Origin: Rhodobacteraceae bacterium (ex Bugula neritina AB1)
GTDB lineage: Bacteria > Pseudomonadota > Alphaproteobacteria > Rhodobacterales > Rhodobacteraceae
NCBI GenBank assembly: GCA_001730095.1
Contig: MDLF01000001.1
Coordinates: 9,904-68,576, forward strand
Reading direction: 5' to 3'
DNA: 58,673 nt
In this document: positions 56,344 through 58,337 of the stretch, piece by piece
How the letters are laid out: every line of letters starts with the position of its first letter
Position numbering within the stretch: position 1 is the stretch's first letter
The notes under the pieces: model-generated
What the model was told of the DNA's origin: nothing
What the model saw: the letters and a program-made list of their open reading frames with translations, nothing else
The model's database searches: none
Program-made: the position numbers and the translations under genes

Positions 56344-57975
56344 TCACGCGGCGGGCTTGTCCCGGCGCAGTGCGGGTGTGGCGGAATTGGTAGACGCACC
56401 AGATTTAGGTTCTGGCGCCGCAAGGCGTGGGGGTTCGAGTCCCTTCACCCGCACCATTTTACATTTCATCGTAAATTCTTCCAAAAATCTAAATATATCA
56501 GATGGTTGCGCGGTTCGAACGCCTGTTTCCTTGGTGTATGGAATGAGTGGCTTGAAGGCCAGTTTCAACACAATACGCTTCATGGTGAAGCTACCGCTTT
56601 CGTATATTTTCCAAGGGTTTGACAGGAATTCCATGGCTGGTTCGAACACATCTTTGAACTGACGCTTTGGTTTCACGCTTTGATCGCGTTTTTCTTCCAG
56701 AATTTGCTTCTCACGCTCTAGCTCTTCAATCCGTTTTTCGAATGCTGCAACCACAGTTGTGCTGTTGCTGGCGACGATCTTATCAAGTGTCTGCTCGATC
56801 TGCTTTTCACAGGCTTTGATCTGGCGAGTCACCTCAGCCTTTTGCCCTTGCTGCTGCTCTAACCGCAGATCCCATGCGTGCTTTAGCATAGACGCCGCGA
56901 TCTCAAACAAAGACTGGCTTGGGTGCAATTGTTGGAGCGCGTTCTCGACCGCCCCTTCCACATCTGTCCTGCGCAGGGACTTACGATACATCTCACAGCC
57001 CTTGGTATGGCAGAGGTAATATGGATGTTTGTCCCCATTGCGGCTCTTGGACCAGCAGGCCGTCATTGGCGCTCCACAGCAGCCGCAGCTCATAAATCCA
57101 CGCATCGGGAAATCCAGATTGATATCCTTGCGTGCTGGCGCGATAGGACGCGCGTTTTTGCGGGTTTGGATTGTCTCAAAGGTTGCTAGAGAGATAATCG
57201 GCTCGTGATGGCCCTTGCGGCGTGTCACACCCCATGGGTCATGTTCGATGTAACCTGCATAGATTACGCGGGCGATCATGTCGCTGATGCGCTGCTGTCG
57301 AATCTGACCAATGGGCAGGTCTTTGGGGTATGCGGGTTGAGCTTCAAAGAACCGCCTCAACTCTGCTTGGCTGGCAATGCGACCAGAAGCGTAAGCTTCC
57401 AACCCCTCCTGTATAATCGAGGCCACTGGTTCATCACGGACCAACAGTTTGCCGTGGGTTTTGGTTTTCTCATAGCGATAGCCGATAGGTGCAGTGAACA
57501 CCGCATAGCCGTTCATCATCCGCCCCTTCATGCGGTTGTGGGTTTGTTCAGCGTTCTTCTCCCGTTGGTGCTGTGCAACTGAGGCCAGCATATGTTCCAC
57601 CAGTCGCGAGTCACTATCTTCACCAAACTCAATCGATGGGCTTTCAAGAATACCGCCTGCCTCAGACAGGGTTTGGCGCAGCTTGATATGCGCCTGCACA
57701 TCGCGGGCAAATCGGCTGATATCGTCAATAATGACAACAACGCTGTCTTTGGGATGCAGGCGCAAGAACGCCAGCATCCGATCCATTGCGGGGCGGCGCT
57801 CAAACTTCCCTGACATATCGTCAGAGAAGACCTCAACCACGTTGTAATCCTTATAGGTCGCATATTCGCGGCAGCGGTTTTCTTGTGAGGCTAGCCCGTC
57901 GCCTTCACGGACTTGCTTAGCTCCTGACACGCGCGTGTAGATAACTGCTTTTCTGGGTTTGTTTGCTCCTATCAT
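56344..57975 (-). CDS. Large serine recombinase (integrase)
   Basis: A 543-codon frame. The resolvase domain (1-155) has the catalytic serine at residue 17 in VIYTRVSGAKQ and SRFARDVQ in the active region. The recombinase domain follows (about 165-290). Then comes a zinc ribbon with FMSCGCCGAPM and LCHTKGCEMYR (about 290-325), a coiled coil (about 365-445) and a C-terminal arm. AAAGGAG lies 5 bases before the ATG, inside the end of the upstream 95-residue gene (ATGA overlap). About 37 final codons (from KMVRVKGLEPPRLAAPEP on) are antisense to tRNA-Leu and host DNA, so the true element-coded part ends near residue 506. Confidence 0.93.
   Translation of the reverse strand: MIGANKPRKAVIYTRVSGAKQVREGDGLASQENRCREYATYKDYNVVEVFSDDMSGKFERRPAMDRMLAFLRLHPKDSVVVIIDDISRFARDVQAHIKLRQTLSEAGGILESPSIEFGEDSDSRLVEHMLASVAQHQREKNAEQTHNRMKGRMMNGYAVFTAPIGYRYEKTKTHGKLLVRDEPVASIIQEGLEAYASGRIASQAELRRFFEAQPAYPKDLPIGQIRQQRISDMIARVIYAGYIEHDPWGVTRRKGHHEPIISLATFETIQTRKNARPIAPARKDINLDFPMRGFMSCGCCGAPMTACWSKSRNGDKHPYYLCHTKGCEMYRKSLRRTDVEGAVENALQQLHPSQSLFEIAASMLKHAWDLRLEQQQGQKAEVTRQIKACEKQIEQTLDKIVASNSTTVVAAFEKRIEELEREKQILEEKRDQSVKPKRQFKDVFEPAMEFLSNPWKIYESGSFTMKRIVLKLAFKPLIPYTKETGVRTAQPSDIFRFLEEFTMKCKMVRVKGLEPPRLAAPEPKSGASTNSATPALRRDKPAA
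56372..56456 (+). tRNA. tRNA-Leu (anticodon TAG)
   Basis: The 85 bases fold as a class II tRNA. Acceptor arms are GCGGGTG and CACCCGC, with discriminator A and an encoded CCA end. The anticodon stem CCAGA/TCTGG encloses TTTAGGT, giving TAG, which reads CTN-type leucine codons. The long variable arm is TGGCGCCGCAAGGCG, and the T-arm GGGGGTTCGAGTCCC follows. The leftward recombinase frame runs through it on the opposite strand. Confidence 0.97.
56425..56460. other. Probable left attachment site at the 3' end of tRNA-Leu
   Basis: The recombinase gene begins the foreign DNA directly beyond the tRNA CCA end, and its own frame crosses into the tRNA. This makes the T-arm/acceptor 3' portion the likely attB core. 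The matching right end is outside the window, so the exact core cannot be set. Confidence 0.4.
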
Positions 57976-58259
57976 TGGTGCTCCTTTCTGCCGATCTCAT
58001 CCTCAATCAAGGATACCACATCCAAGGGATCGTCCGTGTCCAGCTCTTGGGGTTCTCCACAGATTTGCTGCACGGGGTTCAGGTCAAATCCGAGATCCAC
58101 GAAGGTCACAACGATGGACCAGAGGGTTTCGATCAGCTCTTTTTGTTGTTCAAGCGGCATGTCGCTGCCCTCAAGCATGGCGGCGTAGACTTCCCAATCA
58201 ATGCTGAGGCTTGGGCGGGGTGATGCTGTGGCATCGGACACATTTGGCGGACAGGTCAT
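57972..58259 (-). CDS. Small acidic protein coupled to the recombinase
   Basis: A 95-residue protein starting MTCPPNVSDATASPRPSLSI. The ATG at 58259 has AAAGGAG 5 bases upstream, better than an in-frame TTG 18 bases earlier. It is acidic and mostly helical (EQQKELIETLWSIVVTFVDL), with the end DDPLDVVSLIEDEIGRKEHQ. Its stop overlaps the recombinase ATG, so it is translated with it. I recognise no family; an accessory role such as directionality or expression control is possible but unproven. Confidence 0.7.
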   Translation of the reverse strand: MTCPPNVSDATASPRPSLSIDWEVYAAMLEGSDMPLEQQKELIETLWSIVVTFVDLGFDLNPVQQICGEPQELDTDDPLDVVSLIEDEIGRKEHQ

Positions 58260-58337
58260 GCGCGCTCCTTTCTTCAAATCAATTTTGGGGAAATGTGGTT
58301 CTCATGTCGCCTGTTTCGCACGGCGCACAATAAGAAC

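Follow-up and report, generated by a model that had tools for sequence, protein, structure and literature searches.

A serine recombinase gene reads into tRNA-Leu

The window analysed here is a stretch of 58,673 nucleotides on contig MDLF01000001.1 (GenBank assembly GCA_001730095.1) of Rhodobacteraceae bacterium (ex Bugula neritina AB1). Near its right end, an intact ORF on the reverse strand (56344..57975) with an ATG start encodes a large serine recombinase (LSR) of 543 amino acid residues in its integrated form, with matches above the Pfam cut-offs to Resolvase (PF00239), Recombinase (PF07508) and Zn_ribbon_recom (PF13408). On the basis of frame, residue count and family alignment, the recombinase body comprises residues 1-507 (56455..57975, reverse strand) and runs to the junction codon, an ATG at 56457-56455 that specifies residue 507. 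The remaining residues 508-543 and the stop codon (56344..56454, reverse strand) are read from host DNA, namely from the antisense strand of the attachment target, tRNA-Leu (anticodon tag; 56372..56456, forward strand), and from the DNA upstream of it; the first few bases of this host-read tail are part of the core shared by both ends of related elements. The tRNA gene encodes its CCA end (56454-56456) and is also present in relatives without the window's element. The first-pass annotation of this DNA had described a recombinase frame running antisense through tRNA-Leu(tag), and the intact 543-residue ORF, the last 36 codons of which consist of antisense tRNA and host DNA, bears this out. An open frame across a single tRNA is weak evidence, and it is the family pattern that lends support to such a reading.

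Judging from relatives and from one tail of the same subfamily in the window's genome, the attachment core probably extends over 56450..56457, which reads ATGGTGCG in antisense and takes in the CCA end. A T-loop motif, CTCGAAC in antisense (56433..56439, reverse strand), lies at offset 18 from the junction base and is proposed to be the zinc-domain half-site of attB. Directly upstream of the LSR gene is a small ORF of 101 residues (57972..58277, reverse strand), the TGA stop of which overlaps the ATG of the LSR (ATGA) and which gave no match in Pfam, PHROG or NCBIfam. A look-alike (W.I..FVDLGFG-like) precedes the LSR in eight of 13 relatives inspected, and none was seen in three; a loose pattern for this ORF gave a tally of 69/87, which is unreliable because two of its matches among the 13 relatives were false. 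The small ORF is a candidate directionality factor.

The antisense tRNA frame across the family

At E ≤ 0.001, 50 of 101 genomes had matches to the window LSR, many being just distant serine recombinases. The family analysis was carried out on 94 loci, consisting of the best 80 of 571 relatives on genome contigs together with the 14 of 51 viral-contig loci with at least 41% identity. Within this set of the best 80 of 571 plus 14 viral loci, 72 have a full antisense tRNA at the 3' end of the LSR gene, no more than 60 nt from the match; these tRNAs bear 15 isoacceptor labels (Arg, Leu, Ser, Thr, Ala and Phe), and in 72 of these 72 the LSR enters the antisense tRNA in a single frame without an earlier stop, the 22 loci lacking a full tRNA lying outside the latter count. 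That a serine recombinase should target a tRNA gene, as claimed at first pass, is correct and was found across the whole clade.

Among the 19 loci with a neighbouring tRNA that were compared first, including that of the window, the LSR frame of L049 ends 13 nt short of the tRNA, the LSR of L051 is intact and enters the tRNA in a different frame, and the copies in L053 and L056 are broken and likewise use a different frame; a different frame was also noted by eye in L244. Among the 22 loci without a full tRNA (of the 94, the best 80 of 571 plus 14 viral), the native tail described below is present in L245 only, two leave the contig, and in the remainder the frame continues into fragments of tRNA or into unrelated DNA. 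Some of them stop within 8-12 codons, such as L233, a 64% relative. This locus (L150/L233, IMGVR_UViG_2893701126_000003) has a tRNA-Thr-like core at the 3' end and no tRNA, and an ORF of 998 residues starting 0.25 kb beyond has a P-loop motif and, by eye, resembles a defence protein.

A tree of 87 LSRs required 20 changes of target amino-acid type, and the close kin L169 and L170, with end branches of 0.024 and 0.030, sit at tRNA-Arg and tRNA-Thr, respectively. Counted from a PFK.L-like motif, the linker between body and core has 8-10 codons in 62 of 66 measured loci, and the remaining four seem to be false matches of that motif. Since the linker is nearly constant in most loci, its frame does not provide independent proof; an interpretation of the variable gaps between BLAST end and tRNA as in-frame indels was dropped, given that most linkers are of this length.

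The clade that includes the window's LSR is found mostly in Alphaproteobacteria. Family members L171, L211, L227 and L232 come from records labelled Bacteroidetes, Gammaproteobacteria, Chromatiales and Micavibrio, labels that may reflect either wider hosts or binning errors. Searches of phage and plasmid collections gave no record with 80% LSR coverage and no match at 60% identity; one LSR-like piece of 39% identity is carried by a Tritonibacter mobilis plasmid.

A conserved tail at the far end of related elements

In well-assembled relatives, the distal end of the element was located by a match to the core, which leads there into a short ORF in the LSR frame. This distal tail begins in the attachment core, is 30-65 residues long, is unlike the host-coded tail and contains a conserved LF..L..W motif. 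Long direct repeats at both ends occur in few elements because the core is short.

At E ≤ 1, a tail profile (A2) built from seven tails matched 40 of 53 genomes or records and had no tail match in 13 of the 53; at E ≤ 0.001 it matched 33 (own count), five of which had supplied profile rows. A second profile, for the window's subfamily, matched in 15 of 24 at E ≤ 0.1, three of which had supplied rows, and gave no tail match in nine of the 24. Of the 42 A2 matches at E ≤ 0.001 (own count), 33 share contig and strand with an LSR and are located 5' of it, six are on contigs without a located LSR, one is a fused copy, one (G115) is an additional tail on that same side, and one (G009 C1:3894058), although on an LSR-bearing contig, fits no LSR. 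The tail at G123 C9:259510 does not fit an LSR either. Together with four tails from the second profile, the 33 make up 37 LSR-tail pairs with both parts on a common contig and strand, at distances of 4.2-36.7 kb with a median of 20.8 kb, where the same contig means a shared contig number or an equal record size (the G133 records differ by 100 bases); two of these pairs, both in G009, have broken LSRs. A further 13 second-profile tails (E ≤ 0.001), including that of the window's genome, are unpaired, LSR positions having been searched for in a minority of those genomes. Seven extra pairs were recognised by core or motif (G024, G069, G103, G106, G108, G109 and G110). The motif pattern gave no tail within 40 kb of L155 or L160, and a pattern scan of viral contigs for the tail returned nothing.

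The gene is present in its un-integrated form on one viral contig, L245, where LSR and tail form a single intact in-frame ORF of 533 residues, the sole intact fused gene found. This contig is phage-like; a gene matching a minor tail protein follows 19 nt after the fused ORF and a portal gene lies further along. Moreover, LSR 3' remnants are fused in frame with tails in L290 and L310, and decayed LSR remnants precede the tails in L333 and, by eye, in L355. A protein model of the L245 product had a mean pLDDT of 81, with values below 50 for residues 497-533 and no confident placement of the tail. The first-pass annotation had further proposed that the C-terminus of the enzyme differs between the integrated and circular states of the element. 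For the relatives, the conserved in-frame tail at the far end and the fused gene in L245 argue that it does; the window's own element, the far end of which was not found, may behave likewise. The first-pass interpretation is thus supported in part.

A codon test was performed on 33 distinct tails, nine of 43 having been omitted for insertions or odd spacing and one as a duplicate. In tail codons 11-25, beyond the motif, most differences fall at third positions, and the median dN/dS was 0.37 (269 usable of 528 pairs), or 0.49 in the 154 closer pairs, with medians of 1.2 and 2.2 in the shifted frames. All 33 tails stay open in frame through codon 25, whereas 23/33 and 20/33 contain stops in the other frames, a difference that ORF selection favours. 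The G-E-S-S-N of the tail is also att DNA, so conservation there proves little. The LF..L..W motif is kept in most tails and, in the window's subfamily, is kept despite insertions of varied length; six of the seven tails in this subfamily end in RGPRP and one in RGPSL.

The tRNA 3' end as attachment site

The element of one relative (G002) is inserted in tRNA-Tyr, and its joined host flanks match unbroken in 11 other genomes of the genus. In the carrier, the flanks are separated into two matches that overlap by 8 bp at the CCA end of the tRNA; 13 of 21 genomes had a match in this comparison, G008 among them in part. These empty-site genomes, with their 8-bp core, uphold for this relative the claim that the tRNA 3' end is attB. 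The same comparison for G009b was unclean, with ~9.6 kb of other DNA in between.

Comparison of the two ends of LSR-tail pairs revealed that identity begins at, or one base before, the CCA complement in most, that the shared core has ~6-9 nt in most pairs and more in a few, and that the base preceding the core differs between the two ends in several. A TTCGAAC-like motif (5-7 of 7 bases) stands at offset 23 in the attP arm of 43/43 tails, two of them identical and seven of them found by a pattern requiring offset 23, and the T-loop motif of the tRNA stands at offset 18 in 89/89 tRNAs. This shift of the motif by 5 bp between attP arm and tRNA may be the reason why so many tRNAs can serve.

Genes that follow the tail

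An ORF like MobC/NikA or a relaxase follows the tail in 39 of 44 cases by eye, and the tail stop overlaps an ATG in 19 of the 44. Pfam searches on two elements gave a MobC/NikA match in G023b, and MobC, relaxase and coupling protein in contig C51 of the window's genome. With such mob-like ORFs after their tails, most elements seem to be mobilizable, and L245 is phage-like. Small ORF, LSR, tail, mobC and relaxase would form an unbroken series in the circle alone, and the recombinase and mob genes may constitute one operon.

The far end and host flank of the window's element

The contig stops at the right edge of the window, 0.7 kb beyond the LSR start, so that the far end of the element, along with the region where mob genes would be expected, is out of view. 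The host-flank approach did not locate it, and the one tail of the right subfamily in the window's genome lies on another contig (C51:68282-68419). This tail is followed by mob genes and sits among other genes and transposase-like ORFs. As the partner end of the window's element it is unproven, given the other contig, the other genes and no tRNA nearby, and it may belong to a second, decayed element. Elsewhere on C51, a fragment of a second family recombinase (G000 C51:24516-24746, 34% identity) ends near a tRNA-Lys (C51:24870-24945).

The porin genes that follow tRNA-Leu in relatives match contig C74 of the window's genome. In place of the complete porin gene of relatives, the start of this contig (G000 C74:1-1160, L138) holds an apparent transposase region and a short remnant of a porin. 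Comparison of these flanks suggests that the downstream flank of the window's tRNA-Leu has likely been lost. Across genomes of the genus (L008-L028), tRNA-Leu(tag) is followed by the porin flank and by at least two other kinds of DNA, and with several kinds of downstream DNA the site looks like an insertion hot spot. The best stand-in for the window's element is L154, which also targets tRNA-Leu(tag), with an LSR 72% identical and a tail 15 kb away.

Proposed model and alternatives

The in-frame tails, the fused gene in L245 and the empty site indicate that the LSR gene is cut in two on integration and that, in mobilizable relatives, mobC and relaxase genes are separated from it as well. From sequence comparison, we regard a split LSR gene as close to certain in the relatives and as likely in the window copy. 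The explanation that we favour, and hold with good confidence, is as follows. attP would lie within the 3' part of the element's own LSR gene. Sequences of relatives show attB to be the CCA end of the tRNA gene along with the acceptor and T arm. They further show the LSR frame of the free element crossing attP into the conserved tail (LF..L..W) and, in mobilizable members, mobC and relaxase-like genes coming after that tail. In these relatives, recombination replaces the tail half of the LSR gene by antisense tRNA and host DNA, and the tail and mob genes end up at the opposite end of the integrated element. The window's element presumably follows the same design. In addition, the tailed enzyme may act once the element has entered, and the form ending in host-coded residues may act in excision; the recombinase-mob row may be an operon that is continuous only in the circle, in which case the transfer genes would be expressed after excision; and recognition of the common T-loop and CCA end may allow one enzyme type to use many tRNA genes. 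More tentatively, the attachment site might constitute a switch inside the integrase gene, whereby the circle would encode a full integrase with a regulatory tail along with the transfer genes, and integration would cut both, leaving the enzyme with an antisense-tRNA tail and the transfer genes silenced until excision; this extension is put forward with some reserve.

It is conceivable, although we lean against it, that the tail is a regulatory peptide controlling directionality or degradation that is removed by integration, by analogy with the integration-dependent immunity of mycobacteriophages. Such a role would fit the loss of a conserved peptide exactly on integration and the LLAA ending of the L245 tail, and a known analogue is the C-terminal tag removed by integration that is described in the available part of that report (PMC4557955). 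However, the tails share no ssrA-like ending, and an ssrA-like degron would fit L245 only.

We think it unlikely that the overlap of the att site with the 3' end of the gene is accidental, with a dispensable tail and a swap that has no effect on the enzyme. The body and its domains are identical in both states, and the host-coded part spans 4 to 421 codons in the 71 loci with a visible stop (among the best 80 of 571 plus 14 viral), suggesting that the integrated C-terminus is under little constraint. Against this, the native tail past the att DNA is conserved more strongly as protein than as DNA, and LF..L..W survives insertions of varied length in the window's subfamily. We likewise doubt that the window copy is a decayed remnant, its frame into the tRNA a leftover without a working partner end. 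The host flank apparently cut by a transposase region, the short porin remnant and the position of the genome's one such tail on another contig among transposase-like ORFs would be consistent with decay, whereas the window LSR ORF is of full length with all three Pfam domains. Finally, it is very improbable that the ORF of the distal tail encodes a small protein of its own starting at the core. In favour of this reading, the codon there is ATG in most distal cores and the ORF is short and conserved. In several pairs, however, that codon is GTG, CTG or TTG, with a first base unlike that of the proximal end and with stops or unrelated DNA right upstream, and in L245 the tail is the end of the 533-residue recombinase.

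Comparison with known systems

With an integrase tail exchanged on integration, as we propose, the C-terminus of the enzyme in the relatives depends on the integration state of the element. Serine integrase directionality could then be tested on a single enzyme that occurs naturally in two forms. The arrangement also provides an example of a series of genes that is unbroken in the circle alone, and it suggests that a single type of enzyme can use many tRNA genes by way of their T-loop and CCA end.

Archaeal self-splitting ('suicidal') tyrosine integrases of the SSV type have their att site inside the integrase gene, which is split on integration, and the part of an archaeal integrase review that was available presents self-disrupting recombinases as exclusive to archaea (PMC8371274). 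The att-in-integrase arrangement is found in the relatives and is conjectural for the window copy. The present enzymes have serine recombinase domains and no tyrosine recombinase, and are thus not filed as members of the SSV type. Furthermore, the SSV-type enzyme is cut into inactive parts, whereas here the catalytic and DNA-binding domains stay joined, intact after integration, and the C-terminal tail would be exchanged. In the integration-dependent immunity of mycobacteriophage BPs, attP likewise lies in an open reading frame, and integration of BPs-type phages changes the repressor, as described in the available part of the report (PMC4557955). There, the repressor is altered and loses a degradation tag; in the relatives studied here, the integrase itself is altered and no common tag is seen. 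Neither the SSV type nor the BPs type covers a serine integrase with its tail exchanged for antisense tRNA, and a literature search of limited reach found no description of an LSR with its tail swapped in this way.

Among the multi-targeting large serine recombinases of Durrant and others (2022), close kin also use several targets, according to the portion of that paper available (PMC10083194). The word tRNA was not found in that portion of its main text, whereas 72 of the 94 loci analysed here (the best 80 of 571 plus 14 viral) are at a tRNA 3' end. The present family shares its set of domains and the 5-bp shift with the LI integrase from a Listeria phage and with further serine integrases, the half-site motif of the zinc domain being displaced by 5 bp between attP and attB in the available part of the LI study (PMC3783163). 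In the present family, unlike LI, the attB motif is the T-loop of a tRNA, and the attP arm also encodes the tail of the integrase.
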